Source: Cruorifilaria tuberocauda | Taxonomy: Eukaryota > Nematoda > Chromadorea > Rhabditida > Onchocercidae | Reading direction: 5' to 3' | NCBI GenBank assembly: GCA_013365365.1 | Contig: JABVXU010000149.1 | Location: 52,317 to 116,316, forward strand | DNA length: 64,000 nt | Shown here: positions 305 through 42,118 of the stretch, in pieces | Layout: every line of letters begins with the position of its first letter | Numbering within the stretch: position 1 is the stretch's first letter | Position numbers and translations under genes: made by a program | Notes under the pieces: model-generated | The model's database searches: none | Seen by the model: only the letters and a program-made list of their open reading frames with translations | What the model was told of the DNA's origin: nothing

Positions 305-1458
<1,154 letters not shown>

Positions 1459-17773: not shown

Positions 17774-20010
17774 CAATGACAATCAATTACCCCGATGCTC
17801 ATTAGGAGGGTTAATTAACCACGCCCTCTTCCAAGTTTACATATGTGGGCAGAATTTTCTGTTGACACAGGAATACATTGGTAATATCTCTTATTGGTAT
17901 TTCAAGTAAAATGATGGCTTTTTATAATTTGGCACAATTAGAGATTATTAGCTAAAATAAACTTGATCATTCAAAACTACATATAACTGAACTAAATTAA
18001 AGTTAGAGCATAGGAAAATGCATCCGATGTTCTTGATAGATTTTACGTGTGTGAGCAAGTTTGTAATTCAATGATCAGCAAAAAAGACGAAGAATTCATG
18101 CTTCTTAATTGCCGAAATAGTATAAATCATCCTTTCCCTGATCAAAATTTTCTGACCGCTCTTAGTATCCGTATTTTCTTTCCGTTGTGTACTGTAGAAA
18201 GCTTACAGAAAGATATTATTTAAAAGAATACAATGACAGAAATTTGTGTTCCTACAAAGAGTATTTTCATTTTTCAAATTGTGACAATCCCAAATCCTTA
18301 TTTCTTCTGAAGAGTCTAGGATTTCCCAACGGTTTGTCATCTCGAAAAAATAAGTTAATGTTTGTTTAATATTATAAATTTACGATAGTTTTGAACTGAT
18401 TTACCGAATTATTTGAAAGGTTCATATAATAGCGAGGATCAGACATTACATGGTTATGGATTTAAAATTAAAGTTCCTGGAATGAAAATAATAATCTATC
18501 ATTAGGAAAGGTGAAGCTTCCTTTACTATATTTCGTCCGTAAATCAAGAATTGAAATTAAATAATGATCTTTGACACAAATAATGTACAACTTAGATGAA
18601 AAATTTATTAATTATATCCAAATCACAAATCACTAACTTCTACGTGTCAGGAAAATATCGACAACATGAATAGTAAAGAAATTGAAATTTACTTCAATCT
18701 TTTTATTGTCTTCATTGCTGATATCTTTTTGTGTTTTCGAGCAAACTTTTGCTTCAAATGATATAATAAAACTCAATCTATAATGTTTTTATAATTTCAA
18801 ATTTCCGAAACATTTTGTATGGAAGGTGGGAAGAGGTTTCTGAATTTCATTTAATTTTTATGGACTGAAGGTATAACTTGCATAATTATTTCGTTACAAC
18901 AATTATGAATATCATAAGGTTTTATAGGGAAAAAATAGTCGCATACTACTATTTCAGCGTATCCATTAAAAAGTTTAATCTATCAAATCCGTATGTATAG
19001 TGTAAATAATTATGAGGTGGATTCAAATTGTTGATGATTATGGAATATCAATTGAAAGAATTAATTTTATATAATTTAATTTAAAAGGAATTAATTTTTG
19101 TTTCGAGACAAGATCAATAAATTATGGTATGATTCAACAGCGGAGGATTTTTACTAATATGTGAATAGTTGCTTTTCACTTTCAAATGAAGAGTAAAACA
19201 GTTAGAAATATATCATTAGAAATTGAATAGAATTAATCGGAAAAGGACTGATCATAAGAGATTATTGACCGGTATCGTAGTGTCAGAAAAATTCGATGAA
19301 CAGATCAAATAATTCAAAATGTAGACTTTACTTGACGTTTGATTTCATTTTAATGTTACAAATATACGATAGAAATTTTTGCAATTAAGTTCATATTGTT
19401 ATTCATGTCTTATCAACATAATTTTATTAAAAGGTCTCAATTAAAAATAGATAGAATGCTTCAAATATTCTGATAATGCAATTATCATCTGATTGCTTAA
19501 CTCATTATGTGAACTAACCCCTCATGATAATACAAGTATACTAATTATAAATTATAGCACAGTTGATAAGCAACTTTAATGAAATTCTACTAAATCAATC
19601 CTTAAAACACCTTATTGCTCAAAATAATTTTAGAATAAAAAACAATGAGATTTCATTCATAACCTGCTGCTGAAGAGGATGCTGAAGAAAATATCATTGT
19701 TCAAGTGATATTAATATTGGTGATATATAATGAATTATCTGAAATGTTAAATGATGAAAGTAAGTATAGTTATGTGCATATCCTGTTGTAATTATGCAAT
19801 TGAAAGATAAGAATAACAAAATTTTTTTGTCGATTAGAAAGTAATGCAAAGTAAAAGAAAATGGAGGAATCACTGCAAAAGTACAATTTTTTACATGCAT
19901 AATGCATGCATGCATGTGTGATGTGTGTGTGTGCTTGTTAATTATTGCAATGAATGTCATTTCTTGTTGAGTGAATACCTTTCGAGAAGTAAAAGTTACT
20001 CTTTAACGGT
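17774..20010. other. divergent intergenic region between homeobox gene and giant receptor gene
   Basis: This is AT-rich DNA between two genes that start in opposite directions, so it should contain both promoters. A short alternating purine-pyrimidine run (gcatgcatgcatgtgtgatgtgtgtgtg) lies near 19907-19933. No coding exon, RNA gene or defined regulatory motif was recognised. Confidence 0.45.
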
Positions 20011-21066
20011 ATGATCGCAAGTTCTTCCACCGTTTATACATCAATATTATTTGGTATTGTTTTGGCAAGTTTTCGCTATAACTATCATATTGGAAATGTG
20101 AAATTTTCCTGCATTGAAGGTAAGTTTCTGTGGAAAAATGAATTTGATGAAGGTAACAGTTCTGTTAAGTGATAGTAAAGAGGCAAAAGAAGAAATGATG
20201 ATAGGTTTAGGTTAACAAATGTAGATTTGAAAATACTTTGCCGTCTTTTTCTTTTTTAATTTTAAAATTCGCATTCTTCATAATTCTCTTGATTACAGTG
20301 AAAGGAACAAAGCAAAAAAAAGGTAAATATAATATAAAATTATAGGATGGAGTTTATATGGAAATTCATGTTATATAGTTGTTCCGCAAGAACTCTCTTG
20401 GATAGATGCTAACAATCTCTGTGCTTCACAAACGTAGGTTATGTTATCAGTATTCAAAAAGTTGCGCATTCTCAATGATTTAAAAGAGAAAAAAAGAAAA
20501 AAGATATTACGTGACGTAATATCTATTACTTACAGGTATAATTACAGTCGAAATATTGCATTGCATGATTGGTTTTTAATGCGTGACATGAGTGTGAATT
20601 TACTCAATCCAATAAATAATTATTGGACAGCATTTTATTATCGAGGAACAAAAAGACGGGATTGTCGTATGTCGGATGCAGTGTTGCATGCGAAGTACCA
20701 TTCGTACACAATATCTATTTATAATCCACTCTGGTCACCGAATCAGGTTTCAATCAAATTATTTCCGGAACTGTTAATTTGAATGAGTATTGGGAAGAAA
20801 AGAAGACTTTTTAAAGAAACTCTGATATTGCAAGGTTTTCTGATAAGATGTGCAATTTTTGAACAACAAATTTAAACTGAATGAAGAATATGCTTCCTAA
20901 AAAATATCAGTTACTTTATCCTTTCAGTCCAGGCTTGAAGATTGCACTATGGATAGTTGCATTTATGTGCACGCTAATTTTTCCGATCAAATCAATTACG
21001 GCTGGAAAATGGGAAATTGTTCTGCAAAGTATCCAACAATTTGCGAAACGTTCGCTTGCTTGGAAG
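20011..21066 (+). other. giant receptor: signal peptide and C-type lectin domain
   Basis: Exons 20011-20119, 20299-20322, 20379-20433, 20536-20746 and 20928-21066 join in phase. The first encodes [20 protein letters not shown], a signal peptide. The rest shows lectin-domain landmarks: [13 protein letters not shown] near the first conserved Trp/Cys helix, [12 protein letters not shown] for the WIGL-like core, and a closing W-NCS-PTICE with paired cysteines. No EPN or QPD sugar-binding motif and no clear WND motif is seen, so calcium-dependent sugar binding is doubtful. Confidence 0.78.
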
Positions 21067-24000
21067 GTAATCGAGTTTCAAAGTTTCTTATTACTATTTT
21101 CAAATTCTGCACTTCAGTATTTTAACTATAGATTATCAATATCGATGCAAGGATAACAGTAGATGTTATCCACGAAAAGGCCGATGCGATGGAATACAAG
21201 AATGTAGTGATAATTCCGATGAAGCAGGCTGTTTAAAGGACCATGTTGCTTGTGGCAAAACGTTATTCGAAGAAGCAGAAAATGAAATAAGCTTTGAAAT
21301 GAGTTCAGCTGAATATGCTTCATGTCAATGGATTATTCGACAACTTGTTCACAGAAAAATCATCCTAACGGTTCGTTTTCATGAGTATTTATAATTATAA
21401 GCTTAGTTAAAAATTGATAGAAAAAATTTTCCTCTATATTCTTGCAAGCACTTTTCGCTGATCATAAACTATTTTCCACGTTTATCATATCTTGTAACGG
21501 ATACTTTATAGTTGATTGATATCACTATTAGAGATGGTGATGAGCTCATCATTAATGGAATCCAAAATAATAATGCCGATACCATTTCTGGCTCACAAAT
21601 GGTATTAAATATGTCGACATCGAGAGCACAATATGCTTCCATTGGTAATACGGTGATAATCACTTTTCGGTCTCAGAAGACCGGTCCGGCAGTTGTGAAT
21701 ATGCCTAATGTTATTCTTAAGTTCTCATACATCACGCAAGGTATATTTTTACTTCTTCCAAAAAATTTCGTATTTGATACGATATTAAAAGTTCCTAACT
21801 AATATTGATGATATATGACGAATTGTCTGAAATGTTAAATGATGAAAATAAGTGGATGAATATGCAATCTGCAATAATTTCAGTAATATTAAATTCAAAT
21901 AAACGAATGTCTGCAACTATATGTCTTCATTTTTCTAAATCCTCGATCACACTGAATTAGTGAATGAGGAAGTTGAGGAGAAAACATTTTCTAAGTTTTT
22001 CAGCTCTTTTCCAGGAGTGTACTGCTTCATGCCGAGAATTGCTCACGGCTCTGTGGTAAATATAACGGGTTTTGCAGTAGGAAATGAGCTATACTTTAAA
22101 TGTCATTTGGGTTATCAGATACGGCCTGGACAGTCCTCTTTATCACGCTGTTACAATGGTGAATGGACTCCGAAGCCAGAATGTCAAAGTATTATTCCAA
22201 TTTTGTCAGCTATTAATTAGCAAAGTATATTATAAAACCTGCAAAAATTTAAGCTTAAAGATTCGTTTTACAGCTTTAAGTTGTGGTTCAGCAAGTGTGG
22301 TGTACAATAATGCGATTCTTACTGGTTACACTAGAAATGTAACACTATACAGTCGAGCCCTGTATTCATGCGAATCTGGTTTGTACCTAAGTAGCGATTC
22401 TCCACCGTTTCGACTATGTACCGAGAATGGAACATGGACCAATCCTAATTTTTCTTGTCAAGGTAGTCTTGATTTATCTTATCGACTAATTTTTTTAAAA
22501 TAACTCAATCGATTTTTGAGATGTTGAAAAACAATTAGAATTATTGTAGCATCTTTTTGTCCTGCTGTTTCATTCGCATATGGACACTTCCTGGATCAAT
22601 TTTATGCAAATGGTACAGCTGGAAAATATGTGTGCGATGAAGGATTTCATCAAAATGATGCTGACCCAATATGTATATCTGGCAATTGGAATAAGACACC
22701 TTATTGTCACCGTTAGTGATTAATTTCAAATATTATTTGGTTTTGCTGAAATTTTGATTTTTTCAACTGTAGCTATTTAAATCGATGATTTATAGCTGAC
22801 TATCATTGCTATTATAATTCATGTGGAAATGGAACATGTGTCCAACTAATTGGTGGCTACAGTTGTCTTTGCTATGAAGGTTTTCGCATGATTCCCACAT
22901 CTAAAGGCTACACATGCTCAGGTATAGGATATATTTTTTTGTTTTATCATAATTACATTCACTAAATACCGTAAATCTGGACATAATTAAAAATATGGCT
23001 TTGAATGTTTAGTTAAAAATAATCAATGATGTTTTAGAAAGTTTTCTTTCTAGATATCGATGAATGTTCCATACCGGGTTATTCCCTTTGCGAATTTATA
23101 TGTGTGAACACAATCGGTTCTTACGAATGCAAATGTCCTGATACTCATCGCCTCTATACTGCTCCAATTAGCATGAACCATTTTATCAGCAATACCGAAT
23201 TTTTGATTCCCAATAGAACATGCATTGGTATGTTTGTTTATAGAGAGAAATGTAAGAGGAAATAAATGTTGTTTATAAAATGATTGCAATACCGATCTTT
23301 ATTCCTGGACATTGTAAAATTCGTGAAAGGAAATTGTTTAATTGCAGTACATTTGCAATCTAACTTACCTTGGTTTTTTTCACCCAATATTACTAACTGC
23401 TTGATCATTATCATACTGAAAGAATGGATTAAAATGAAATGAATAACTCCGAATTTCATATTTTAACTAATTCATAATATATTGGATCGTTCTGGTTCAG
23501 TACCTACCCCTACCTATATCGCTGATCAGTATAACTTCGAATTCTAAATTTTTTGCGGCATGGAATACGTTAAACCGTAGTACATTGGTATTAGAACTTT
23601 TTCATTTTGAATGCTATGGAAAACATCATACCGTTGAGCTAAGGAATATTATGACTTTAATTTTGTAAAATTATTCAAATGCTGGAGATATTGATGTAAT
23701 TTTCGGTTTTTACCAAAATTTTCGTTATCTTATAGAAGTGCAATGTTACAGAGAAGCGATGTTCTGCACCCGAGATTCCGCCAAATGTCATCCCTTATCC
23801 GTTACATATGGATCCTTTCCCATATCAAAATGGACTCTTCCACATTGGTACCGTTGTATATTTTGCATGCGATCATTCTGCATATAATTATGCGAGCCTC
23901 GTTTGTAATAAGAACGAATCATGGGTAATGTTGAATGATTGCTTAGGTACGTATTATAGCAGGAGCAGTAATGTGCTAAAATTTTCAGGAAAATTAATAT

Positions 24001-27000
24001 TTTTCCAATTTCCTAATTCAAAATAATTGTGATTCTTAAATGCAAATATTTAGATATTGAAGTTATATGTATCAAGTTACAACTGTTTTGTTCAAAAGTA
24101 ATTAGTGTATCTTTTAAATGTACTATAAAATGGTTCAAAATTCCGACTGAATGTTTGGTATACAAATGATTTGCACGATGTCATCCCCATGTACTTTCAA
24201 TGAATAACTACATTGCAGTATTCTTCCAATCTTGTTTTCAGACATAACTTGCAAACCACCAGAAATTTCGAAGGCTAATTTGATGATGTGGCCTATTAAA
24301 AAGAGTTATAAATTTAAAGATCAAATCCATTTTTTCTGTGACAAATTTTATCAGTTGAACGGCCCATCTTCTTCATATTGTATTGGTGTTGACAAGTGGT
24401 CTTTGTCGAAATTGCCCGATTGTATCGGTATGTTGCTGAATTTATATTGCAAATGAAGCAAATTCACATCGAAATCTCCGTATATTTTAATGTTGATTTC
24501 AAACTCATCTAAGACTAACCATCATTCATTTTTAGGCAGATTGAACTTAGTTTTTCAGTAATTTTAACTACAATTAAAGCACCCAATTCCAAAATTATAT
24601 AACTGATTTTAAATGGTTGATAAAAAATGTCAAAGTGTTCTTTAGTAAGGCAATGTCCTGGCTTGCAACTTGATGACTACAAAATTATCCCTCTTAATAA
24701 CAAAATAAACAATGCCGAAAATTTGGACATGTTTTTTGGGTCAGCTGTGCATATCACAGATATACCTGGATACAGGTAATTGCACTTAAAGTTTGAAACT
24801 GTTTTCAGGAGAGCTGAAAATTCAAGTGAAATTTTCAAATCTTTTAAAAAATAACATTGGTAGCGGCTATACCATAGAGGAAAAATCAAATATTGAAAAC
24901 TTATAAATTTCCTGAGAAAGAGAGACGATGATGCATTGGGTTTCAAGACTTTTCTGTCTTGACACTCAAAATGACGTATTACTAGGTTTGCAAGAAATTT
25001 GTCGGATATTATTAACCCTATCTTTTACATTATGCAATCCTGCTTGATTATTCGCTGATAAAGACTATAACTTGAATTTTCAAGTAGGAACAGTTAAAAA
25101 AATATTTGGGAGTATAATATGCACATTTGATTTTTGAGATTTTTAATCAATTATTTGTATGAGAAGAGCAATTCAAGATTATGTAGCCGTTATTATTCCG
25201 TTTAAATTCAGGCAATCTTTTTCATATATTTATTTCAGCTTGTTCATCTCTTGCAAAAATGGTGCTAAATTTGCAAATGGTCAGGCTAAAATTCGTTTGC
25301 TTTGCATGCAAAATTACACCTGGAATTTGAACAGTATTCCCGCTTGTATCGACGAAGGTATTTTTTTTTCCTTTACTATCGTTAGCTATCCCAGTAATTA
25401 ATGCATATGTACCAAAATATGCGTTGAAATTGTTTTCCAAGAAGAAATTTTTAGTTTGAATTTAATTTTTTTGAAACAATTTTTTATCATCTAGAAGATA
25501 ATCAGAGAAATCTATCTAATAATGGTGATGTAATGATCAAAGAATATTCTGAACAGTGTATCAGAAACACTGTAAGTAATGTACACGTCTCTATGAATAC
25601 CTCTGCAATGTTATGGTGCTTTCTTCGTTCTAAATGCGCTAATATTACTTCAGTAAGTCATTGTTTTCTTATGATATATAAATTTAATGCTGTATGATAC
25701 TCAAAACTAGTAAAGATATCTTACATATATTAGTGCCTTCTTTACGATTATCAAATATGGCTTATTAAAAATATAAAATTCATTTAGATCAAGTGGTACC
25801 GTGATGATCACCAAAGCATAAATGCCGTATCTTTAAAAGGTGAAAACGGTAGTTGGGGATTGTTTTTTGAAAGCGTTAAGGTTAATTTTCTACTTACATT
25901 TGAACAATTTATAAATTTATGGCAAGCTAAGTTTTTGAAGATTATTTGGCCAGTGCATAGCATATTTTTGAGCACTCCTTATCTAATTAATTTCTCATAA
26001 TTAATCCTTGTATTTCCTTGTAGGTGGTTGATGATGGCAGATATTATTGTGCTATACTAGACAAGAATCAGGAAGTGTTGGAAAAATATCCAGCAGATCT
26101 TTATGTTTACCAAAATTTCGAAACTGGTCGCAGTTGGCGTGATATTATTGAAAACAGTGAACCAGTTAAAGGTCATTTCTTGAGATGTTTCATTTTTTGC
26201 TTTTACTATGATTAGCAGTAATGACATATTACGTTCCTTTGTTTGAAATGAACGTTGTATTTAGAGATGCTATTTGCCGTTGATAATAGCAACTGGTCAG
26301 GAGTTACCTCGGAAACTGTAAGTTTTTATCAATTTATCCTTCACATTATATCTTCAGCTAATTGATCTAAATGCTTAAAAGTCTTTAATGCCTAAATAGG
26401 ATGCATCTGTCACATTTTTTCATTTAGACATCAATGCAAAATAGTAGTATCTTCAATGGGACAACACCCACTAGTAGGTACGTTTTTCATGGTGATTGTA
26501 TAGTGACAATATCATCGTGATGATGAGAGCAGTTCAGATTATGATACTTTCGTTAAGTGTTACTGATAACGACTTTTAATATCTAGTCTTAAGAAAACGA
26601 AAAGAAGAATGTGCTATGTGAGAAAATAATTTTTCCCCGCATGTAAATTCCTCATTGCAGGAGTTGGTTGTTCCAACAAGTTATCCTACTGCCACATGGA
26701 TGTAATATCATTGAAGTAAAATATAAATTGAGGAACTGTTTAACATGCCCTTTAGAACTAATTTTACATTCTATAGAAGATACAAATCTAGCAAATTACT
26801 CTTCATCTTATTTGAATGTGTCACATATTGATTTGATGGATCACAGACTTAACTTGTTTCAAAAAGAAATTTGCTCGCAGCATTCATACTTCTTTCTTGG
26901 AATTCGTGGTGATGTCAATAGCGCTACACTGGAAGGCGTTAGAATTTATGCCATAAAGTGTCCAGAGGTACATATTCAACATGTTTTCATAATAGGTAAG

Positions 27001-30000
27001 ACATGCATTTGTTACATTCTATCAATTAGAATGGAATTTAGCTATTAATAATACTATCCAACTGCGGGAGACCATCTGCTTGAAATTAAGTAACATCAAA
27101 AAGAATAATCAAAAAATTTTAACTTCTAAGTCGAATATAAATCGTTTTTCTTTTCTAAACTTCAGTTAAGTGAAGTAGAGGTTGAAACGTGGCTTCATGA
27201 AAAAGGAATCAATTCCCTATCATCACCGATTATCAGGTACGGGCGAGCTTTGCACTGTTTCCGCAAACAACTGCTGTTAAAGATGGTAGCATTGTTCCCG
27301 GACGATGTTTGCACGGCGCGCATACCAATATTCAAGGTCGGGATCCACAACTCTTCTGTACACGACATGGAAAGTGGATTTATAATGAACAAAGTGCAAA
27401 CTTATGTTTTTGCAAAGCAAATTACATATCTGAAAATGATGCGTGCATAGAACGAGGTAAAAAAAACTTTCAGTTGAAGCAGATATATAATAAAAAATTA
27501 AATTGCTTTGATGATTTTTCAAGTTATAGAGCGATGTTATGTCGAATAAGTTACTACTGTAACTGCACATTTTCAGGTCCAGTTTGTTATGTTTGTTCGG
27601 GAAGTAATGAAACAGATTGTGATGATTCTTCTGCTGTTTTTTGTGATAAGAAGCAGTATTGCTTCACTCGGATAACTAAGGCTCTGAAAGGAAATGTGAT
27701 ACGAAAAGGCTGTATTAACAAATGTACTGCAAACCGCATTATGTGTAAGACAAGAGAAGAACCTTGTGAAATGTGTTGTCAAGAGGACTACTGCAATAGT
27801 CGGCGCAATATGTCAAAAGTTGATAGCGAATACTTACGTCCCTATCCAATGTTTAGAGTTGTATGTCCTAGAAACATTACAGTGTTGAGGTTCGCCTTCT
27901 TCCGAACCCAAAATTGCAAAAATAATATATCCTAGTAAACTAGGAATGATCTTTAAATTCAAAATTCATGCAATTTAATTGGACTACGAAAATTTGTTTT
28001 TGAAAGAATAACTGCATTTAGTTGAAATTTTCTGAAATTTATTGCATAGTTTTCCTCTTTTAAAATGCTGAAATTGACGCATTTTATGCAGAATGAAAAT
28101 TATTTTTTGAAGGTATTCAAAAGGAATACTAAGCTCTGCAACAATAGTGCCTCCTCTGATATACAATTACGAGCCGTTTTACGAACTCACCGTTGACCAG
28201 AATATTTTTGACGGTAAAGTACAGTTTGTAAAAGAAACAAACGTGATCCTATGGACGGCGACTAATCGGATGATGCAGTTTAGAAACTGTTCAACATACG
28301 TTTTTTGCAAAGGTTATTTCTTTTTCGGATTAACAAGCTTAAATCATGTGTGGAACAATAGGTGAGGTTTGTTGAACCTGAGATAAACTCGAATTTTGGT
28401 GAAATTTGGAAAGTAAAAGAAATTTTCAGATTACTGGGCGCCTGTGCTTCATTGCCCATCTCTATACATCGATCATATGGTAAACACAACATCACTGAAA
28501 TTCAGATTACGTCTTCCAGACATTAATTACCGTGATTTCGGCTCACGTGTTTCGCTACATTATGTCCCTTCAAATGGTACCGTCGCGGAAATTGATGAAC
28601 CAGTGCAAATTACGGTTACTGCAACTGACGAAAGTAATAATTCAGCGCAATGTGTGTTTTGGTATATCGGACAAGGTCAGCTACATTAACTTAATTAGTA
28701 ATAGTAATAAATTTAGTAATAAATTGTCGATGTATAACTAAAATGTTAACGGCCATTATTTTTGTTATTTAATTGTAATCTGACTTTCCCTAGAAACTTC
28801 CAATAAATAAGTTATGCTTCATTCCACAAATTTTTATATCCTTTTGGCAGCATAACGTTCATGCCAGTTCCTTTGTAGTAGCCGATTGTCCATTATGGCC
28901 TATAAACGAAACAGAATATGAATGTAAGGGTTCAGTGAATCAGCGAGTATGTAAACGACGGCATGAATGCTCTGGAATACAATTTCCTAATCATGTAACA
29001 TCTTTACATTGTGAAGCTGGTCAAGGATGGAGTTATGTGAGCCCTCAATTCATTGATACTGTCCCTATGAGCTTGTTTCGAACACCGATTTGCTTACGTT
29101 AGTATCTTTGAAATTACATTCATTTTATCATCATCTGGAAGATACTATCTCACTTATATCTTTGCTTACTTACTCATTTCAAGAAGCATTACATCTTTGT
29201 ATTTCTGTTTATGCAACATCCTTTTTATTCTAAGTTTTGTAAAATTTTTAACTTCCACATTAGTTGGAACTTACACTACGATCATCCAAATTTGTTTTTT
29301 GGGATTTCAGAAAGTTCTGCTGGAAATGTTCGGTTATCTGTGAATCTTTTCATGAGCTCACATCTAAATGATTCGTGCAAAGCTACCTTGATTGATAAGG
29401 TCATTCTTTTATGAATAGCTACAGTGAATTAAAGAAGTCTAAGTTCTTCTAACTTCGCATATGTAAATTCTTAGTTAATTGTTTTGCACATAAAATAGCG
29501 CGAAAAACTGATAAGTATTGCTATTTGCATCATAAAGCATTATTAATTTCTATAGTAAGCGAAAATGGCAACAAATAACACTATTGGAAGAGAACTTTAC
29601 AGATTTTTCATAATTAATTTATTCAGGAAATAATATGAAAACATATTGATTGTTATTGTTTTGGAGACATAATTTCTTGAAATTTCATTATCTTTTTGCA
29701 CTGTCTTTAACTGTTTTACGGTTGATTACTTTTGCAGATGCATCATTTGCCTGAAATGCACGAAACTAAGGGATGTCGTCTGTTGAAATGGACATTTGCT
29801 GGGTTATTATTTGTAGACAATGATATATTTATCAACTACACAATACGTCATGAAAATATATCGACAGCACTAGAGTGTGCTGCTCAGTTTGTCCGTCAAA
29901 TCATCAAAGGAAAACTTGTATTTAACGTGTGTTTCTAAAGTAAATAATTCAAAGAGGTTGTAATCTCGGAAATCACTTGTTCAAGGTTTCTGGAAGGCAA

Positions 30001-33000: not shown

Positions 33001-36000
33001 GCTCATATTCCAAGTGCTAGCAAAAACTAACGAAAATTTTAAATATTGGTTTGATTTCGAAGTTTTGCATAATTTAATGAGTACGCATAAATGAAATCAC
33101 TTCAGTGATGTTTGATTGTAGTGCATAACATACTTAATCATCAGTGGTGTCCGATCAATAAAGAATGTAATCAGAGCTTATGTAAAAACAATGGTATCTC
33201 AGTGTGTGATTACAAATCACCATGCATATGTCCGGTATCTTATCATGGAGAATTTTGTACAGAGAAAGCTGAGCCGTGTAAAAATTTACCTTGCAATCAT
33301 GGTATTTGTGTTCCACAACTTGATCACTTATGGCCTTATTATTTTTGTAAATGTGATACAGGTTTGAAATTTTTTCCTATTTAAACCAACTTATATTAAA
33401 AATCAGAACTTTCAGATAGTATATTTTTAATTTTAAATCATTATTATGAAGAAGATGAAGTATACTTATCACATTTCTGAATTGGATTTTGATATTTAAT
33501 GTAAAGGGTTTCGTTCTCTTTCGGTTATTGTGGCTAAATTTGGTTTTAAAATAAATGTTCTGATCAATATTCATCTGTTTTTTATTATAATCACTGAAAT
33601 CCTAGTGTCTTTAATATAGATGTAATACTGATAAAATTGGGTAACATTTCGATTTCAGATTACTATGGAGAGAAATGCACTGCACACGCAGCTTGTCTAA
33701 GCAAAAATATTGATTGCAAACATGGTTACTGTCTTGAAAATAATCAAGCTGTATACTGCGAATGCTATCCCGGCTTTACTGGAAGCGATTGTTCAGTGGA
33801 GATCAACCATTGTAACTTATTACCATGTGTACATGGCACTTGTAAACCAAAATTTCTGGGCTACACGTGCATTTGTGATGAAGGCTTTAAAGGAAGCCGA
33901 TGTGAGGTAATTTCAATTTCATTTTTAGCTTATGTTTAGATGATACCATCAGGGCTCTCCAACAGTTTGTCGCAGCATAATGGTATGTCTGTATGTTTAC
34001 AAAGCCACGAACGAACTTACAAAAATCTTTTACATCAATTCATTTCATTTAATACACTCTCTTAAACTTAGGTTATTGCTTAAACAATTTAGTTTTCCTA
34101 GTCTTCCATAAGCAATCAATATTTTATCAGCTTATTTGATCCGGTAATTCATTGTAAGATTTGAACGATCATGAACATAAATATTTATCTCTATTCGGCT
34201 TCACCAATTTTCAGAAGATAATAGATCCATGTGATGAAAAACCATGTAATATCAATTCGGAATGCCATGCTTTAAGCTATGGGTATAAAGGTAGATTTAT
34301 GTGCAACTGTGCACCGGGTTGGACAGGTATGTTAAGTATACAATAAGTTTTTTTTAGTTTTTAATAGTACCAATAAAAATGTCTAATAAAAATATTTATA
34401 TGCCTAAGAATACATAGATCATCTGCCTCAACAGTATCATTTTTCAGGAAAATACTGCACTGAGCTGGTAGACCTTTGCATTCATTCCCAATGTATTTCT
34501 GGTTCCACTTGCATCACCCGACCTGAAGTTAATGGAAATATTGGTTATGTATGCATATGTCCTGCGAATAGAGTGGGGACTTTTTGCAATGAATCAGTTA
34601 ATTACTGCAAACCAATAAATCCATGCTTACACGATGGCATTTGTCAGCAGAAAGATGATGGCTATATGTGTCATTGCAAACCAGGTATCTTCGTCTATTA
34701 CAAAGACAATCTACATTCAACTATTACAGCAGGAATCTCGAGAATTGCAAAACTTGAGCACTTTAGCAAATATACAGCTGATACTGATTAAATGATTGTT
34801 AAACATGAATATGATTTGTGTATCAAAAGCTGAAGCATTAACCCACTGATAACATTAACAACAGACAGATATGTGAAGTACTATAGCTACAGAAGGATTG
34901 TGTAAACCAATGCTAAATACTATACGATTGATATCGTGAGAAAAAATCTGGACTTCATCATACTGAATTTGATGGAAATTGTGACATTTTGTAAAGTAGC
35001 GGCTTAAATAATGATAAGTAGGTACAATTAGACATTAAATTTAGTTTTGTCTATGTATGTATGAGCAGTTTTTATTATGCTGCTGTATAAAAGCGTTCTT
35101 AACAATAGGCTATCGAGGGAATTACTGTCAACATAATCTGTGCTCACCAAATCCATGTCAAAATAATGGTAATTGCACAATACTGTCCTCAACAACTTAT
35201 GGCTGCTCATGCCCTCGACATTACAAAGGTGTTAATTGCACTATGGTTAAGGTACGTCATTCAAAATACTTTCATAGCGTATGATTTGCAATTTATACGT
35301 ATTAAGAAGTTTAAAGGAGTCTGTTTTTTAATTATGATATTGATTGATGTTTGCTCACGATGGAAAAAAAGCAGTGGTCGAGTTGATGGGAAAAATTCGT
35401 TTTTGAATCTCATGTTTACGTTTTCAGATTCTTTCTTGATAGTAAATTGCTTCTTATAGGATGCATGCGCTGTAAGTAATTTTGAAGATTATTGTTTGAA
35501 TGGTGGCAAATGTATTTTCAACAGTTCTGGACCTTTCTGTCGCTGTACACATCAGTATGAGGGACGTAGATGTGAAAACAGTTAAATTTTATTGTCATTG
35601 CTTTCCGTATTGATATTAGCTACCATTCCTGATTGATGATAAGCAAGTAGTTGTCGAATTTTTATAGAAAAAGATTTGGACTTCAATGTTATGTTTGACA
35701 AACAAACACGAAATTTGATGTCCGCGTCATTTGATGCCAGCATATTGAAGCAATTCACACTGTGTTTCTGGATTAGGATAATATCAGTGAAAAACAATCG
35801 CTTTGTCTCATTTCTTGATTTCGTTCAACAAGGGTATGATTTTTTGATGTCATTTTAATCTCATTTGGGAAGTTTAGCTGAGTGGAGCTACTTCCTTAGT
35901 GGAGATTCAATACTTTTGAAGCAGGTATAGAAAAAATCACAATGTAAAAAGCACTGAGAATGATTGTTCAGTTTACGTTCATTTTGCAATGACAAAGAGA

Positions 36001-39000
36001 TTCACCAGTTGTGTTCTCAAAATAATTATATCTTACTTCATCTCATTTTTACCTTTTTATTATGTGGATGCTTTTGTTAATCGCCTCATGTTATGTCCTG
36101 TAAGGAATCTTTTTAGATTAAGAAAGAATATTCTATCAATAACCGAGAATGAAATAAAATTTGGTAATTATGAGGGGTGGACAAGTATGACAGAAAATCA
36201 ATGGCAACAGGTAAAGAAAGATAAAGTGAACTTCAAATTTCTTTTATTTTCAAATTTTGTTTTTCGTGTGCGCAAAGTATCCATTTCATACTATGCCTAT
36301 AATTTGGAGTGTGGGACTATTTTAGTTTATTTTAGTTTTGCTTCCGTAGAAAGATGGATGGAACTACCGAGTGGATACGGAATGGTGAAATTGTTTGGAA
36401 AAGGAACTGGGACGTACCAGCGGTCAACGGAAGTGTAAGGATTTCTTTGGGCGCCTCAAAATTATTTCACGGAGAGATGAGTATGGTTCAGGTTTGCCTT
36501 TTCATTTCTCTCTTCATAGCATTTTTCATAATTTATAGCAATCGATGATTTCCTTTTATGGAGAAGAAATTGAAATTAATGGTATTAGTAATTCCAATAC
36601 CATTATGTAGAAGAGCAAATATAAATTTTTCTGGATTTTTTAATGTTACTATCTGTTTGCATTGCTTTGCAAGAAAAATTGCAAGAAGAAAGCAGTACAT
36701 TCTTCTGTTGAAGAGAAATGAAGTAATCGGAAAATGATTTGCAGTTTGATTTCACTTTTTGTTGAGCTATAAATCGATCACTTTTTAGTTATACAACACA
36801 GCTCTCCATAACAAACAGATAAATTATTCTGTTCATAATTGTAAGCAGTGGTTGCAATCAGTGGCTACAAGTAACGAAACTCCTATTGTTGAATGGAATC
36901 AATTCACAGGTGTTAGACGTGGAAACTGTAATTTTCCAGGGATTTGTACACTTTCTGAGTGTTTGCTAAATCCATATCGCTGCAATTCAACTATAGGTAA
37001 TCTTCGGTTTACTCGTTTCATGAGAAAATCAGTGCTAATTCGTCTTTGATATTAGGAAAACTTTTCCAAGCGTGGCTGACTGCCGCCGTATACCGTAAAG
37101 TTTGGTCATTTTCATTCATGTTTATTGCAGATAAAATACCACCAAAAGTAACCAATTGTCCAGCAAATATCATTATAACTTCTGAGAACAGACTAACGAT
37201 CGTTGATTGGTGGCCATCGAAATCGAATGAAATCTTTGCCGATAATGGTATCATTAATATGTCATCAAATTACAACAGTGGTGATGTTTTTACCTGGTGA
37301 GTTGCAAACATATCCATAACAAATATTATTTTGTTTGCTGAATTTTTATTTCATATCAATATGCTCAAAGTAGTGCACAAGGACAAAGTTTATAGTTGAG
37401 ATGATAGTTGCTAAAAAATGATGGTTTCTAATAAAATGTTAATAACATAGGGGTAAATATCACGTCGTATACATTGCGGAGGATGAATTTGGAAATATTG
37501 GAACTTGCCAATTCGATCTTGTTGTGGCAACAGGAGACTGCTCTAATCCGGAAAGAACAGATGGCATAAATTTTACGATTCAAAACATCCATTCAGGAAG
37601 CGTTCGCAAAGTGGCATTTGTTGGATGTGAATCGAATTATACGCCTATTCATCCAATCACCGACTTTTATTTCTGTGACCTAATGGTTTATCTTTCGGAG
37701 CTGTTAATTAGGAGATCCATGGGTTTTTGGAAAAAGTCTACATTATATTCTTTAATACAATAATCCATTCATTAAATAGCAACAGGTTGTTTTCACCATT
37801 TTATGTCTTTATAGGGTCGATGGACTCGCTGGCCCTATCGAATCAATTTCTATTTTCCAAGTTGTTTAAAATATCGAGCTCCACTGCAACAATTAAGTGG
37901 TTAGTACTTTTTTCATTTTAATGGAATTAGAAAATAATATAAAACAATCATCCCATAAAGCCACCAATCCAAAATGAATGCTCATCTACAAGGTTTTTCA
38001 GGTTTAGTGGTCGTAACAGCAAACTGTAGTGAATTTGATTTGTATGAAAAAAATTTAACAACTATAATTTCGGCAAGTTTACCTCACTCTTTTACTGATG
38101 AATACCCTGAATTGATAGTGTTTAGTTTGTTTAGTTTGTCGGATGCCACTGATATTTAAAAAATGTCTTGAGGGTATTATAAGACCATATTTTTCACATT
38201 ATTTGATCAATTCAGTTGTATTAGCGTTTTCGTCCCTTATTTGTATATTCTTAAGATATTTTCCAAGTTTCACATTTAAAAGAATTCACAATCACCATAC
38301 ACTAACCACTGCAATTTATCTTTTGTGCCAAAATAGAATTTTTAGAAACCATTCTGAATAATCTGTTCGAAATATTTTTTAATGAAAATGCTAATCATTT
38401 CAGAATGCCAATAAACAGTTCAACCGTTTTTGTACCACATTGAATTGTAGCAATGAACTCAAAATTTGGTCAAATTCAAGTTGTAAAAATCGATTTTTAA
38501 GGCAATCCAACAAATCAGTTCAAAACATATTTCTTTATTATTCAATCACCGTGAAGTTCGTTATCTTTCATTTTTTTCTTTTATTATTGCAAAAATAAAA
38601 TTAACCATGATCCAAAATAGTGAATTTTTGCCTGCTAACCAAAACTTCATATTTTGTTACATTGCTGCATTTGAATCAAATTAAAACATTTTAAGCACCA
38701 CAAGAAAGTCAATAAAGCCTGTAGTAATCGAAAATCTGAATAAAATTTTTGGCAACAAAACCGGAAAGCCAAATACATCGTGGCAGTGTCCATTTAAAAA
38801 TTATCCTGTTCAAATTTTTGGAAATGATATTTATTCATGTGGTATTATTTTCGCTTTTTTTTTGCTTCTGTATATTTTCAATTCTTGCAATCTTATCAGA
38901 CAAGATAGATGGAGGTGAACAATGAAGTGCTTAAACTTATAGCCACATAGCTCGCATGCTGGTAACAGTGGTAATTTTAATTTTTAGTTAAATGTCCACC

Positions 39001-42000
39001 TGGTATGTATTGTGTAAACGATAAGTGTATGCCATGTCCAGAGAATACGTTTAAGAGAAATCCTGGTTGTAAAAAATGTACGCCATGTCCGAATAATACA
39101 ATAACTGGTCCAGTAATTGAAGACATCGGTTATCAGAGTATTTTTGACTGTTATAGTAAGCTTTTGTTTCTGCTATTATAAATTATATTGATAGAAGGGA
39201 AGCGACGCCTAATACCATTCTAATATCAAATCATGATGGATAAAGTTTAGATATATTGTATACTCTAAATAAACGTTATATTGTTCATAATTTGCTGTTT
39301 GCTTTTCTATTTACTAAGTTGCTTATCATAATTTCAGCAAACTGCAGTGCTGGTTATTATTATAGCATTCAAGAAGGAAACTGTATTAAATGTCCAAAAG
39401 GAATGTATCAAGATCGACCAGGACAACTAAGATGCAATGCTTGTCCAGAATCTCGCAGCACATTGAAAAAAGTATTTTCATATCGTCTTGCTTCGCTCCA
39501 ATTTGCAAGCATTCACTTTTTACATACTTTAAATTTATATTGTATAGCGATGTAATGTTTAGGGTTCTGTGCATGTTTTAAACTGTACGATTACCTGTGG
39601 TGCAGGTATGTCAATGAATTCACAGTCTCAATGCGTCAAATGTGCGAAAGGAAAATATCGGAAAGAAAATTCCACCGAAGCTCGCTGTACTCCATGTCCT
39701 GACTACTTTACTACAACTGATCATGGAAGTATTAGTCAAAACAATTGCACCGTACTCGATTGTCCTCCAGGAACGTATATTAATTTGTCATCGCCATCAG
39801 AATGTTTCTTTTGTCCTCGAAATTACTATCAAGTAATAACGGTGTTATATTATTATAGAATTTTTAAATAAATCTTCAAGCCAAATTTTAAGATATATAA
39901 TTTTAAAAACAAATCAAAATCTCTTTGCTAGGAGTTCATACAACATTACGGACAAAGAATTCATGACATATAGTAATGAGACATATATGTTTAAAATTCA
40001 TCTTCAAAATTTAATTGCGAGTAATTCACAAGATTGAGACGAATAAACATTAATAGTGAAATAAATATTCTTGGAAATGCAATGGAAGGAATATATGAGG
40101 TGTTATAAAATTGCATTCCTTTAAGCTCCATTTCAGGAAAAGTCAAATCAAACCGAATGTCAGCAATGTGTTAAACCTCTTATTACTCTGGGGACGGTAT
40201 TTTTTTTTCCACAGTTTGTTTTTTTTTTTACAATAATGGTCGATTATCCATATTTTACACCTACTAAATGCATAACCTAGCGACAACTTTCAAGTGACAG
40301 CAATTCCCTATCAAGTTTGAGTTTATCCTTTTATGGCTTTGGGATCTCTGAATGACTTGGACACTGTTTCAACTTGAACCATTTTTTAGCAATCTGTTAA
40401 TCAAAATTTATATGATTTATATAAATTCTTAGTTATTAGTGTCTTCTTGACATTTTAATAGGTGTGGAAAACAATTTAAGGAAAAAGACTTATTGATTAT
40501 CACTCATATTTTTCAATATCTATGAAAAAATGATGATTTACGACTCTATCAAATGGTTACAATGTGAATAATTCTGGACACATTTACAATACATGAAGAA
40601 ATAAGCACTACCGTATTTGTAGGGTTCTGTACATCCTCGACAGTGCATGAAGCCATTGTTCTGGAACTCATTAGTTTCAAATGTTGATATCAGTAAACAC
40701 TTCAGTTCGAATTTGTGGCCAAATTTTGTATTTGTTGGTATTATTGGCGCTCTCGCATTTCTTGCTCTACTTTATTTCCAGAGGCGCAGGTTAAAAATTT
40801 TTTTTATCGAATAAATTATATTTTCCAAAGTAAAACATGATGATTAAGCCAAAATAAACCATAAGAACACTGAATTACGTCGATGACATATTTACATTTA
40901 AGACACGGAGAATTAGCTCAAAGGAGATTTGGATAATTGTATTCAATATAAATTGCCCCACATAAAACTAAAACAAGTGAATCAAAGCAAACATAATCAA
41001 GGAAAATTACTGCAGTTATTACTTAATACAACAAATGAATTCTCTATTCATGCTTTAAGGATATGCTGGTTATTTGGCAAGATAAGGCAAACACAGCTAA
41101 AACGTATCGCTTCTTTGAATTATTACCGCGATTCTTCTTTTACATATCCAATTGTCACCGTGGCACCGACAAGCGTTAGTGGTGCGCCAGGCTTCATCGA
41201 GGAAAGAGCTTCGAAAAATCTCGAAACAGAAGTAACGATTTTCGCACATAATTATTTTAAACTTTGCTTTGCATATTGACATGATTTTATTAGTATTGAT
41301 TACTGACTTATAGATTTGAAAAAACAAGAATTAAATTGGCATTTTCTAAGCTAATAAACACGATAAATTGATGCTCGAATGCATAGGAACAGATGCACTT
41401 AGCATAAAATAAAAGAGAATAACTTCAAGTAGATATTGCATTCATTACTTCAGGAAGTGGTGGAAATTTATGACGGATTACACAGTATGGCAGAGGGGAC
41501 ATCGCAAATGTCAAACAGTGAGTTGACTTCAAGCCAGTACCTTAGGCCCATTTTAAGGACTCCTCTCGAAGTTGATGCTTCATTGAGGGCTAAGTTCTGT
41601 GGTGATCTGAAGGCATTGGGAATGGATTCATCCGACTTCCTCATCGACTCAGCTGACTATGAAAATGCCGATCAATGTAAATCGATGGATACAGAGAGTT
41701 GTAGGGAGAATTTGCAAGCTTCAGATGAAGAAAATCAAATCTTGAGGTAACGAAGAAAATATATTGACTCTATAACGAATATTTAAAGGGTGAAAACCAT
41801 TTGTTATGAAGCATTACCTTTTTTTTTCTTTTTAGAAGATTCGGAAGTATTAGTGGGTTCTTCTGGTTTTATTGAATGTATTGTTTTTCATTTAGCTTTA
41901 AGCAACGACTTCACGCTTATCGGAATTGGAATCTACGAATACCGTTAGATGAAACACATGCAGATTCTACTGAGTATAAATTATTTCTGTCAAAAGCGAA

Positions 42001-42118
42001 CGACATTGCTGTTGAGAAAACAAGCGGCATTTTGCGCGAGGAAAATGAAGATAGAGAGGATAAAGATGAAGAGAGCGATGATGAAGTTTGCATTTCCAAA
42101 ATCTTAGAACAAATATAA
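20011..42118 (+). CDS. giant modular single-pass membrane protein: lectin/CUB/sushi/EGF/Ig/Eph-LBD-like/Ly6/HYR/pentraxin
   Basis: More than 40 exons run from an ATG with signal peptide at 20011 to a TAA at 42116-42118. The extracellular order is C-type lectin, LDLa, CUB, 3 sushi, 2 EGF, 3 sushi, Ig, Eph-type ligand-binding domain, Ly6/uPAR, two HYR-like, a cysteine-poor part, 3 cysteine repeats of the Eph/GCC2-GCC3 type, about 10 EGF, pentraxin/LamG-like, HYR, sushi and more cysteine repeats. A transmembrane helix and a tail without a recognised enzyme domain follow. The overall logic recalls vertebrate SVEP1 (sushi, HYR, EGF, pentraxin, cysteine repeats), but SVEP1 is secreted and lacks the lectin, Eph-like and transmembrane parts. 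Nearly all exon joins keep phase. Three do not with the exons found (23227 to 23736, 27889 to 28148, 37899 to 38988), so a small exon is missed or a boundary is off at each. It could in principle be two genes, but no internal start or stop context supports a split. Binding partners are unknown. Confidence 0.8.
21132..21740 (+). other. giant receptor: LDL-receptor class A module and CUB domain
   Basis: Exon 21132-21370 encodes [18 protein letters not shown] then [10 protein letters not shown]: six cysteines and the acidic DxSDE calcium-binding end of an LDLa module. It runs straight into [18 protein letters not shown], the start of a CUB-type beta sandwich, completed by exon 21512-21740 ([17 protein letters not shown] ... 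[12 protein letters not shown]). LDLa-CUB pairing is common in nematode synaptic and matrix proteins. The CUB call rests on pattern only. Confidence 0.7.
22015..22711 (+). other. giant receptor: three sushi (CCP) domains, one per exon
   Basis: Three exons encode one module each: exon one from 22015 to about 22194, exon two from about 22273 to 22461, and exon three 22550-22711. Each has the four-cysteine CCP pattern with the late Trp, for example [16 protein letters not shown] then [25 protein letters not shown], and [12 protein letters not shown]. All introns are phase 1, the standard shuffling arrangement for sushi modules. Such modules mediate protein-protein contacts in complement and adhesion proteins. 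Confidence 0.85.
22796..23227 (+). other. giant receptor: two EGF domains, the second calcium-binding type
   Basis: Exon 22796-22921 gives [20 protein letters not shown] then CYEGF, a six-cysteine EGF. Exon 23054-23227 starts DIDEC and contains [10 protein letters not shown], the calcium-binding EGF signature (D-I-D-E ... N ... Y). The segment after the second EGF is where the next join fails to keep phase, so the stretch 23228-23735 may hide a small exon. An open frame at about 23501-23590 is a candidate. Confidence 0.8.
23736..25357 (+). other. giant receptor: three further sushi domains, the last split by an intron
   Basis: Exon 23736-23946 ([15 protein letters not shown] ... VVYFACDHS ... 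ESWVMLNDC), exon 24242-24427 ([11 protein letters not shown] ... [13 protein letters not shown] ... [11 protein letters not shown]), and the pair 24646-24775 plus 25239-25357 ([13 protein letters not shown] ... [14 protein letters not shown] ... [12 protein letters not shown]) fit CCP modules. The third is interrupted in phase 2 in its middle, unlike the others. Confidence 0.78.
25495..26171 (+). other. giant receptor: immunoglobulin-like domain
   Basis: Exons 25495-25652, 25788-25880 and 26024-26171 join in phase 0. They show the Ig core: a first Cys in [11 protein letters not shown], the invariant Trp in [10 protein letters not shown], and the DDGRYYCAI motif before the last strand. One V/I-set domain is indicated. 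A gtaagt at 25572 inside the first exon is read through, since it would otherwise break the fold. Confidence 0.82.
26265..27456 (+). other. giant receptor: Eph-receptor-like ligand-binding domain
   Basis: Exons 26265-26317, 26428-26477, 26661-26967 and 27237-27456 join in phases 0, 2 and 0. The peptide follows the Eph ligand-binding fold order: an LLDS-like start ([13 protein letters not shown]), a W near the end of the first loop (SWLFQQVIL), the strand VKYKLRNC matching Eph FTxRDC, FLGIRG for the Eph FYLAFQDxGA strand, RIYAIKCPE for VYYKKCP, then [10 protein letters not shown] for the Eph LAxFPDT stretch, [16 protein letters not shown] and CFC for the cysteine-rich exit. Eph domains bind membrane ephrins, but here no kinase follows. 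Divergence means ephrin binding is not assured. Confidence 0.72.
27577..27889 (+). other. giant receptor: Ly6/uPAR (three-finger) domain
   Basis: One exon encodes [12 protein letters not shown] near the start, then [18 protein letters not shown] and a closing CCQEDYCN. This is the cysteine spacing and CC-x4-CN end of the Ly6/uPAR three-finger fold. These domains are usually GPI-anchored or stand alone; here one sits inside a large protein. The exon continues into [12 protein letters not shown], the likely first strand of a HYR domain. The exon's 3' phase does not match the next exon, so its donor may differ. Confidence 0.8.
28148..28679 (+). other. giant receptor: HYR-like domains
   Basis: Exon 28148 to about 28312 carries [15 protein letters not shown] and exon about 28432-28679 carries [16 protein letters not shown] ... 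[19 protein letters not shown]. The second ends with the typical HYR closing pattern (V-x-V-T-A-T-D-x-S-x-N-x-A-x-C-x-F). HYR is an Ig-like fold found next to sushi modules and thought to mediate adhesion. Confidence 0.65.
28879..30208 (+). other. giant receptor: unassigned ectodomain part
   Basis: Exons 28879-29097, 29311-29399, 29738-29926 and 30136-30208 join in phase (1, 0, 0, exit phase 1). They encode about 190 residues with scattered cysteines ([46 protein letters not shown]) and several N-glycosylation sequons. A similar part with conserved hydrophobic strands precedes the cysteine repeats in SVEP1-like proteins. No named fold is claimed. Confidence 0.55.
30360..31220 (+). other. giant receptor: three Eph/GCC2-GCC3-type cysteine repeats
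   Basis: Exons 30360-30525, 30750-30911 and 31068-31220, all phase 1, each hold one repeat of the form C-x-P/x-G-F/W-(F/Y) ... C-x2-C-x3-(F/Y)-(S/Y)-(F/Q) ... C-x2-C. Examples are [40 protein letters not shown] and [20 protein letters not shown]. This is the TNFR-like repeat found in Eph receptors and in SVEP1/SCUBE proteins. Confidence 0.82.
31619..32587 (+). other. giant receptor: EGF module and low-cysteine linker with a dibasic site
   Basis: Exon 31619-31819 encodes [17 protein letters not shown], an EGF, then a second partial one. Exon 32072-32587 is almost free of cysteine and rich in K, Q, S and T ([20 protein letters not shown] ... [14 protein letters not shown]). It looks like a flexible spacer between folded halves. 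RRVKR at 32263-32277 fits the furin-type R-x-K/R-R pattern, so the ectodomain might be cut here; that is inference. Confidence 0.7.
32555..35580 (+). other. giant receptor: array of about ten EGF domains
   Basis: Exons include 32754-32921, 33122-33361, 33659-33906, 34215-34326, 34448-34684, 35109-35251 and 35460-35580. Six-cysteine EGF units repeat throughout, e.g. [17 protein letters not shown] then [25 protein letters not shown] then [26 protein letters not shown] and [17 protein letters not shown]. Several exons begin inside a module after the fifth cysteine (G-Y-R-G-N-Y-C, G-K-Y-C), so exon ends do not match domain ends. The last ends [14 protein letters not shown]. Confidence 0.83.
35668..36996 (+). 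other. giant receptor: pentraxin / laminin-G-like domain
   Basis: Coding pieces start at 35668 ([11 protein letters not shown] ... [12 protein letters not shown]), continue at about 36117-36210 ([16 protein letters not shown]) and 36350-36491 ([18 protein letters not shown]), and end with the exon from about 36789 to 36996 ([11 protein letters not shown], then [12 protein letters not shown]). The strand order (FTxCxWIR, then a LGxxxxxFxGxMSxVxLYNTAL motif, then VVxWxxF) fits a pentraxin-type jelly roll, as in SVEP1. The pentraxin calcium-binding acids are not clearly kept. Confidence 0.72.
37131..38159 (+). other. giant receptor: HYR domain, sushi domain and an unresolved piece
   Basis: Exon 37131-37300 ([17 protein letters not shown]) and the following exon from about 37451 ([19 protein letters not shown]) make a HYR domain. 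The sushi half [13 protein letters not shown] ... FYFCDLM is completed by an exon ending about 37899 ([12 protein letters not shown], then CLKYRAP). A further open piece from 38004 ([17 protein letters not shown] ...) is plausible. Its 3' join to 38988 could not be phased; a segment around 38720-38870 may belong. Confidence 0.6.
38988..40195 (+). other. giant receptor: membrane-proximal Eph/GCC2-GCC3-type cysteine repeats
   Basis: Exons 38988-39155, 39338-39471, 39563-39832 and 40137-40195 carry about four repeats, e.g. [60 protein letters not shown] and [20 protein letters not shown]. They form the stalk above the membrane and match the first repeat set at 30.4-31.2 kb. Confidence 0.8.
40623..42118 (+). 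other. giant receptor: transmembrane helix and cytoplasmic tail
   Basis: Exon 40623-40789 ends in [20 protein letters not shown] then RRR, a membrane helix with a positive stop-transfer. The tail can be built in phase from 41060-41231, about 41453-41747, and about 41892-42118 (stop TAA). It holds [15 protein letters not shown], a candidate tyrosine phosphorylation context, and an acidic end ([19 protein letters not shown]). No kinase, phosphatase or PDZ-ligand motif is seen. The acceptor at 41059 is chosen because earlier acceptors lead to stops. Confidence 0.7.

Follow-up and report, generated by a model that had tools for sequence, protein, structure and literature searches.

Introduction

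The Drosophila protein Uninflatable (Uif) is described, in the available part of its characterization (PMC3340373), as a transmembrane protein that carries a C-type lectin-like domain, three CUB, eight CCP, two FA58C (discoidin), three HYR and eighteen EGF domains. The accessible parts of this and of two further reports place Uif at the apical membrane (PMC12867482), state that its overexpression inhibits Notch in cis (PMC3340373), and describe, in later work, an interaction with Notch (PMC13178913); in this last source, from 2026, Uif is termed a conserved insect protein. Another related system is the Eph receptor. An evolutionary survey describes, in the part at hand, the ligand-binding domain (LBD) of Ephs as confined to these receptors among vertebrates, and reports sequences related to it from choanoflagellates and one bacterium (PMC6993872). 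Here we describe a gene predicted at positions 20011-42118 (plus strand) of a 64,000-nucleotide stretch from the nematode Cruorifilaria tuberocauda (assembly GCA_013365365.1, contig JABVXU010000149.1, positions 52,317 to 116,316), the whole of which is called the window. As judged from its sequence, this is predicted to be one gene for one very large cell-surface protein. We propose, with a probability of roughly 0.6, that it is a divergent second member of the Uif family, in which a block made of an immunoglobulin (Ig) domain, an Eph-like cassette and a three-finger domain replaces the second discoidin domain, and that its product is likely a single-pass surface adhesion receptor.

Results

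The window gene is predicted as a single transcription unit

A Viterbi model of splice sites and codons, trained on the window, placed the gene between an ATG at 20011 and a TAA at 42118 of the plus strand. These are exactly the ends given by the initial annotation, which had read one 22-kb gene here. The model excludes stops by design, and an open frame by itself is no proof of a gene. Comparison with database relatives led to four changes of the draft (exons of 30 bp and of 15 bp were removed, one donor was shifted and a GC-AG intron was added), after which the model has 59 predicted exons and a protein of 3,416 aa; the Pfam and homologue searches were run with an earlier version of 3,426 aa. 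The 58 introns measure 65-524 bp; 57 are of the GT-AG type, and the remaining one (38073-38403) has a GC donor that was demanded by the alignment with the relatives and was recognized only in that way. The introns had been called mostly phase-matched, which is fair only in part, with 31 of the 58 in phase 1 and the other 27 in phase 0 (18) or phase 2 (9).

The final model aligned to the annotated protein of Onchocerca volvulus (P0001, 3,427 aa) with 72.5% identity over residues 1-3412 of 3416, and because this record aligns from end to end the region is read as a single gene. In the homologue search, made with the draft, the identities were 72% over 100% of the draft for O. volvulus, 70% over 100% for Dirofilaria immitis (for which a second, partial record was also found), 73% over 69% for Brugia pahangi, 51% over 68% for Setaria digitata, 80% over 41% for Acanthocheilonema viteae, and 48% over 39% for a shorter Thelazia record; these records, like P0001, are annotations and not transcripts. 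The model could have fused two neighbouring genes, the second of which would start at an ATG near 32074, since exon 34 (32072-32587) starts beside that ATG and no Pfam domain was found there ahead of the EGF array. However, the Onchocerca, Brugia and Dirofilaria records span this ATG-bearing exon as a single chain, the Uif-type proteins are collinear on either side of it, and no signal peptide was seen by eye downstream of the ATG, so that we judge such a fusion very unlikely.

The predicted protein is collinear with Uif-type proteins

The initial annotation had found the combination of domains to be one not known by name. This does not stand, because the layout is that of Uif, as deduced from the collinearity with arthropod, Trichinella and Haliotis proteins and from the published list (PMC3340373, available part). 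With an arthropod record that is named uif (P0051), the window protein aligned in five blocks in the same order, among them residues 1257-1815 on 1421-2044 (E 7e-31) and 2014-3150 on 2089-3330 (E 2e-78). Five ordered blocks were also observed with a Trichinella protein (P0057), at residues 15-319, 338-544, 553-722, 1309-1824 and 2003-3140 (E values down to 7e-84), and four with a Haliotis protein (P0008), with a gap at ~642-1262. The same architecture had been proposed as something to look for in other nematodes, and it was found end to end in O. volvulus and, outside the block, in collinear form in Trichinella. Sushi, HYR and EGF modules were detected by Pfam, the lectin and CUB domains only through the weak model of an orthologue together with collinearity, and the single membrane helix with its tail only by hydropathy. 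Drosophila Uif itself was not among the sequences retrieved, and the comparison with the fly therefore uses the published domain list, which, in the part of PMC3340373 that was available, fits the window protein except for FA58C.

In P0051, the second discoidin domain begins at residue 1248, between an aligned block that ends at 1045 and the one that starts at 1421. This domain passes PF00754 (cut-off 28.2 bits) with 45.4 bits in P0051, 43.9 in P0057 and 46.8 in a canonical Uif gene of the same C. tuberocauda genome (contig C816, see below). In the alignments, the Ig/Eph-like/three-finger block of the window protein is at the place taken by the second discoidin domain in the other Uif proteins. 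Pfam listed no discoidin domain for the window protein, and a profile of its LBD gave no match to Uif discoidin domains. Since the two FA58C domains were not found, we filed the gene as a divergent Uif-family paralogue and not as Uif itself.

When the Haliotis protein was used as the query, the best 120 of 553 matches were listed and used, and among these were the arthropod record named uif, more arthropods and Trichinella; its LamG-HYR region as a query returned 5 proteins, the query included. Among these best 120, single mollusc species are also listed with multiple Uif-type proteins (P0044 and P0046 from Haliotis asinina, P0073 from Haliotis rufescens), so that multiple Uif members are not solely filarial. 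Three public records of the family have misleading names (P0003, Neurogenic locus Notch protein; P0007, Delta-like protein; P0057, Fibropellin-1), and such names conceal it.

The same genome has a second, canonical Uif gene

Searches of the genome (71.7 Mb, 1,108 contigs) for HYR and Ephrin_rec_like domains led to further contigs, including C816, on which a canonical Uif gene was predicted on the minus strand at 70-18197 (loci L009, L012 and L013), with 2,295 aa up to the end of the contig. A candidate for its C-terminal part lies on the minus strand of contig C684 at 101-9682 (L010), and canonical Uif is thus apparently split across the two contigs. A predicted gene at 16518-27711 of C684 resembles, by reading, a tau-tubulin kinase. 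The C816 protein passes Pfam for the lectin, LDLa, three CUB, two HYR and the second discoidin domain, and its first discoidin domain scores 16.8 bits, below the cut-off of 28.2. The third CUB domain passes a Pfam family that is named after C. elegans M02D8.5 (32.6 bits, cut-off 32), and M02D8.5 may, on this sequence match, be a relative of Uif in C. elegans.

In the HYR-to-GCC2 region, C816 and Trichinella share 43% identity, whereas the window protein shares 24% with C816 and 24-25% with each of C816 and Trichinella. The window gene and C816 have in common eight distinct intron positions of equal phase (nine rows, one of which is a duplicate), compared with a random expectation of 1.07 on average and 5 at most in 1000 draws. 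These sequence comparisons showed that there are two Uif-family members in one genome, and because the second of them is canonical, the window gene is taken to be a fast-evolving paralogue. The block itself was not found in C816 or in Trichinella P0057, which were among the 148 proteins scanned with block models.

The block in place of the second discoidin domain resembles Eph and three-finger proteins

The block covers exons 16-23 (25495-27889). It starts with the Ig domain in exons 16-18 (25495-26171; V-set 20.0 bits, cut-off 26), and continues with a putative, shortened Eph-type LBD in exons 19-21 (26265-26967), an Eph-type Cys-rich domain (CRD) in exon 22 (27237-27456; Ephrin_CRD 25.6 bits, cut-off 27), and a three-finger domain in exon 23 (27577-27889; Toxin_TOLIP 20.6 bits, cut-off 21.2), an exon in which the first HYR-like unit also begins. 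The Ig families, Ephrin_CRD and Toxin_TOLIP are all below threshold in the window protein itself, the last of them just under its cut-off, and the corresponding pieces of the Onchocerca protein pass V-set (27.1), Ephrin_CRD (29.1), Toxin_TOLIP (27.0) and Activin_recp (27.2), with UPAR_LY6 remaining at 18.8 (cut-off 24.8). The match to EphA2 (E 9.9e-10 with phmmer, 3.3e-10 with a profile) spans the LBD-CRD border, i.e., the last strands of the LBD and the CRD. The front half of the LBD was found by hhalign to be in register with Eph LBDs with a score of 25.1 and a probability of only 14%; the maximum of 40 column shuffles was 18.9, and the reversed control gave 12.1. The Eph reading of the block is based on sequence, and the Eph-like and Ly6-like (three-finger) modules that had been noticed from the letters gain support at the same level.

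The models of the CRD stretch, the three-finger domain and the Ig domain matched 7 of the 148 proteins scanned, which were those of the window, Onchocerca, Brugia, Acanthocheilonema and Setaria and the two Dirofilaria records. In the records from Brugia and Dirofilaria the Eph region is incomplete, and the one from Thelazia, in which the stretch of the block is missing altogether, says nothing on its presence. Both the Ig domain (exons 16-18) and the LBD-CRD cassette (exons 19-22) are entered and left in phase 1, which is the pattern expected from exon shuffling, and we infer that the block entered the gene in this way.

Two other origins of the LBD were considered and gained no support. Derivation from a Uif discoidin domain gave hhalign scores of 12.2 and 10.3, which are close to the reversed control (12.1), as against 25.1 for Eph LBDs. 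A recent copy of the Eph gene of the same genome is unsupported, with intron positions and residues that differ, by eye, from those of the LBD on contig C10. This canonical Eph LBD is encoded in three exons on the minus strand at C10:1544-3432 (L003-L005 and L008). Two ephrin-domain loci were also detected in the genome, at C30:10097-10273 (L006) and C521:168140-168337 (L007).

Phylogeny separates the family from SVEP1

The core of the protein had been said to recall SVEP1, and an SVEP1 orthologue that acquired a membrane anchor would account for the sushi, HYR, Ephrin_rec_like, EGF and LamG-like parts that the two have in common, and for the SVEP1 records among the homologue matches. However, Pfam listed no von Willebrand A (VWA) domain for the window protein, its lectin-LDLa-CUB front and its order of modules through the last Ephrin_rec_like repeats match those of Uif-type proteins, and a tree built from the HYR-to-GCC2 region separated three SVEP1 rows from the other 22 with support of 100/100. 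SVEP1 orthology was rejected on the missing VWA domain and on this split, and we consider it exceedingly improbable; the modules are indeed common to both, but SVEP1 is a more distant cousin than Uif. In the same tree, C816 grouped with Trichinella (100/99) and the window clade fell on the Uif side. One clade of the window and nematode Uif proteins was not rejected for this region by the approximately unbiased (AU) test (p 0.081), nor was a clade with all ecdysozoans (p 0.162). Thelazia was omitted from this tree, its record being without the region; a second tree, of the LamG-HYR region, omits C816, whose contig ends earlier, P0009, P0055, P0062 and the SVEP1 rows.

Domain organization outside the block

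All features of the gene are on the plus strand. A Pfam search of the spliced protein, which had been proposed as a check, was run on six consecutive pieces with curated cut-offs, and LDLa, Sushi, EGF_CA, EGF, Ephrin_rec_like, HYR and EGF_TEN passed; Lectin_C, CUB and Ephrin_lbd were not listed. At least nine kinds of extracellular domain had been counted before; there is now support for eleven kinds of module, of which several score under the Pfam cut-offs or are recognized from relatives alone. Exon 1 (20011-20119) encodes a predicted signal peptide, i.e., a hydrophobic N terminus. The C-type lectin domain (exons 2-4, 20346-21066) is assigned from the fold of an Onchocerca model and from collinearity with Haliotis. 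This AlphaFold model of the Onchocerca N terminus is weak (mean predicted local distance difference test score, pLDDT, 49.8), and Foldseek placed C-type lectin chains at the top (E 1e-5) and a CUB domain, that of TSG-6, at rank 11 (E 3e-5). In the Haliotis N terminus, which is collinear with the window protein, Lectin_C, LDLa and CUB pass Pfam. The LDLa domain (Ldl_recept_a 24.3 bits, cut-off 24.1) and then the CUB domain, assigned from Foldseek and the Haliotis collinearity, occupy exons 5-6 (21132-21740). Three sushi domains follow in exons 7-9 (22015-22711; Sushi 71.4 bits in three stretches of the first piece of the protein, with the placement on these exons taken from reading the translation), and then two EGF domains in exons 10-11 (22796-23227; EGF_CA 33.2 bits in two stretches, cut-off 27) and about three more sushi-like units in exons 12-15 (23752-25357), which were recognized by the Cys pattern of the translation and by the alignment with Trichinella up to residue 722.

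Downstream of the block, a HYR-like pair in exons 24-25 (28113-28675) is collinear with arthropod uif (E 7e-31) and Trichinella (E 5e-32); Pfam does not list it in the window protein, and the canonical gene on C816 passes HYR twice at the equivalent place. A sushi-like unit and a conserved stretch without a Pfam match (exons 26-29, 28879-30208) lie within the Uif-collinear block and are followed by three Ephrin_rec_like repeats in exons 30-32 (30360-31220; 101.9 bits in three stretches, cut-off 23.1). Exon 33 (31619-31819) carries an EGF-like unit with sub-threshold matches to EGF-type families (e.g., EGF_Tenascin 22.8 bits, cut-off 25). The linker exon 34 (516 bp, 32072-32587) contains, at 32266-32277, a furin-like Arg-Val-Lys-Arg, which is the sole R-x-[KR]-R of the protein; R-[VI]-[KR]-R is also present in Onchocerca, Brugia and Dirofilaria (four species), and furin processing at this site is possible, to judge from the motif. 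An EGF array extends from the end of exon 34 to exon 41 (32557-35580; EGF 103.9 bits in nine stretches, EGF_TEN 67.0 bits, cut-off 65). The laminin-G/pentraxin-like domain of exons 42-45 (35668-36996) reaches 16.9 bits with Laminin_G_3, below the cut-off of 27.6, and falls inside the Trichinella-collinear block (E 7e-84). It is followed by a HYR domain (36.8 bits, cut-off 21.7), a sushi-like unit and a conserved stretch in exons 46-51 (37131-38841), and by four Ephrin_rec_like repeats in exons 52-55 (38988-40196; 105.3 bits in four stretches).

The membrane helix is predicted at residues 3167-3185 (40725-40781), where the hydropathy of the protein is highest (2.29 over 19 residues), and the predicted intracellular tail of 231 aa (40782-42118) is conserved in P0001-P0004; both had been noticed before and are upheld as predictions from hydropathy. 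In the tail, Pfam listed no match and no tyrosine kinase domain. The predicted ectodomain carries 68 N-glycosylation sequons. No Rfam match was obtained at gathering scores.

Neighbouring genes and other loci

In the window, three other genes were predicted around this one. At 3809-5357 (plus strand), the product has a TDP-43 N-terminal domain (80.4 bits). At 43044-48408 (minus strand), an FGD-like protein is predicted in which RhoGEF passes and FYVE and PH are sub-threshold. At 57885-61942 (minus strand), the predicted product is a receptor, probably a class B G-protein-coupled receptor, that contains a hormone receptor domain (HRM, 44.4 bits); its model seems incomplete. Elsewhere in the genome, a gene at C638:27000-33958 (L011) is predicted to be ELAPOR-like by reading, with an Ephrin_rec_like match of 25.7 bits.

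Discussion

The function proposed for the window protein is deduced from its relatives, with apical adhesion suggested by the family and an altered partner by the block. A duplicated Uif would have had its contact-binding module swapped for the shuffled-in block. The protein would then be located at the apical surface of epithelial cells, like Uif in Drosophila, and the Eph-like cassette and the neighbouring domains would bind a ligand on an adjacent cell; owing to the block, its partner at cell contacts is likely not that of its relatives. Given the two or more ephrin loci of the genome, an ephrin would be the first candidate for this ligand. Notch, or one of its ligands, may be held in cis by the EGF array, and the furin-like site of the linker may allow the chain to be cleaved into two parts that stay together. 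A tentative extension is that the filarial Uif duplicate, having exchanged a discoidin domain for a shuffled Eph ectodomain, would act as a kinase-free ephrin receptor that feeds the contact with an ephrin-bearing neighbouring cell into the Uif/Notch or the apical-matrix machinery.

Several observations weigh against the placement of the gene, the identity of the block or the function suggested. The branch of the window clade is very long (4.06 changes per site), and in the SVEP1-rooted tree this clade and Branchiostoma branch first (84/72), away from nematode Uif, a join that the program flagged as a possible long-branch artefact. In the LamG-HYR region, one clade with Trichinella was rejected (AU p 0.031), so that the AU tests disagree between the two regions. 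The Eph LBD model of Pfam, PF01404, gave no match to the LBD stretch of either the window or the Onchocerca protein, the hhalign probability was just 14%, and the LBD rows lack, by eye, the Cys that Ephs have in their VCNV and GAC motifs, so that a classical ephrin pocket is doubtful. AlphaFold gave no usable model of the LBD-CRD-three-finger region (mean pLDDT 30.2). Furthermore, the window protein and five of the six filarial records that match the block models also served to build them, which leaves Setaria as the only independent one, and in the fly, loss of uif is reported, in the part of PMC3340373 that was available, to cause no Notch phenotype in the tissues tested.

Given the collinearity with Uif-type proteins outside the block, the gene might simply be the Uif of filariae, working as Uif ordinarily does, with the block as a neutral elaboration. 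We regard this as unlikely, since a more conserved canonical Uif, which groups with Trichinella at 100/99, is present elsewhere in the genome, and the block, as far as the records extend into it, is retained in six filarial records. A surface receptor of the parasite for host contact or immune evasion would agree with the seven closest retrieved records (P0001-P0007) being all from filarial nematodes or Thelazia, i.e., from parasites, in a sampling that is thin outside the filariae, and with the 68 sequons of the ectodomain. However, Uif-type proteins are found in molluscs and arthropods, canonical Uif is found in the same genome as well, the roles of the family in the fly are, in the available parts of the sources, epithelial, glial and developmental (PMC3340373, PMC13178913, PMC12867482), and no result of the analysis points to host contact, which makes this option quite unlikely. 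A divergent second Uif-family member with an exchanged contact module thus remains our preferred reading.

What appears to be new, as far as sequence can tell, is the second gene of the Uif family, in C. tuberocauda and in filarial relatives, and an Eph-like cassette outside an Eph kinase; no description of either was found among the matches listed in the open-access literature, a search that left most subscription journals uncovered. A mosaic protein without a name thereby gains a family, and hence testable functions in apical epithelial adhesion and Notch signalling. Relatives of Uif, which the source cited above terms a conserved insect protein, are found here in nematodes and molluscs, and two members of the family are predicted in one genome. 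The Eph-like LBD and Cys-rich cassette is placed outside a receptor tyrosine kinase, and if it does bind an ephrin, the protein would be a natural kinase-free Eph-type receptor.

Compared with known systems, the window protein shares with SVEP1 the sushi, HYR, Ephrin_rec_like, EGF and pentraxin/LamG modules, but the vertebrate SVEP1 records list VWA (PF00092) and neither CUB nor LDLa. With Eph receptors it has in common the C-terminal strands of the LBD and the Cys-rich domain (E 1e-9 to EphA2), with the shortened front of the putative LBD in register, but it has no kinase match, lacks two conserved Cys of the LBD and carries these domains within a Uif-type protein. The canonical nematode Uif proteins (Trichinella P0057 and C816) are of the same family and have the same order of modules, with eight introns common to C816, whereas C816 has three CUB domains, against one in the window protein, and a second discoidin domain that passes PF00754. 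Arthropod Uif shows the same order, i.e., C-type lectin, LDLa, CUB, sushi, EGF, HYR, Ephrin_rec_like, EGF array, LamG-like, HYR, Ephrin_rec_like and one helix. In comparison with it, the window protein has one CUB domain only, no discoidin domain found and, by reading, no EGF pair beside the membrane, and it adds the Ig/Eph-like/three-finger block before HYR, the 516-bp linker exon with its furin-like site, and a very long branch.

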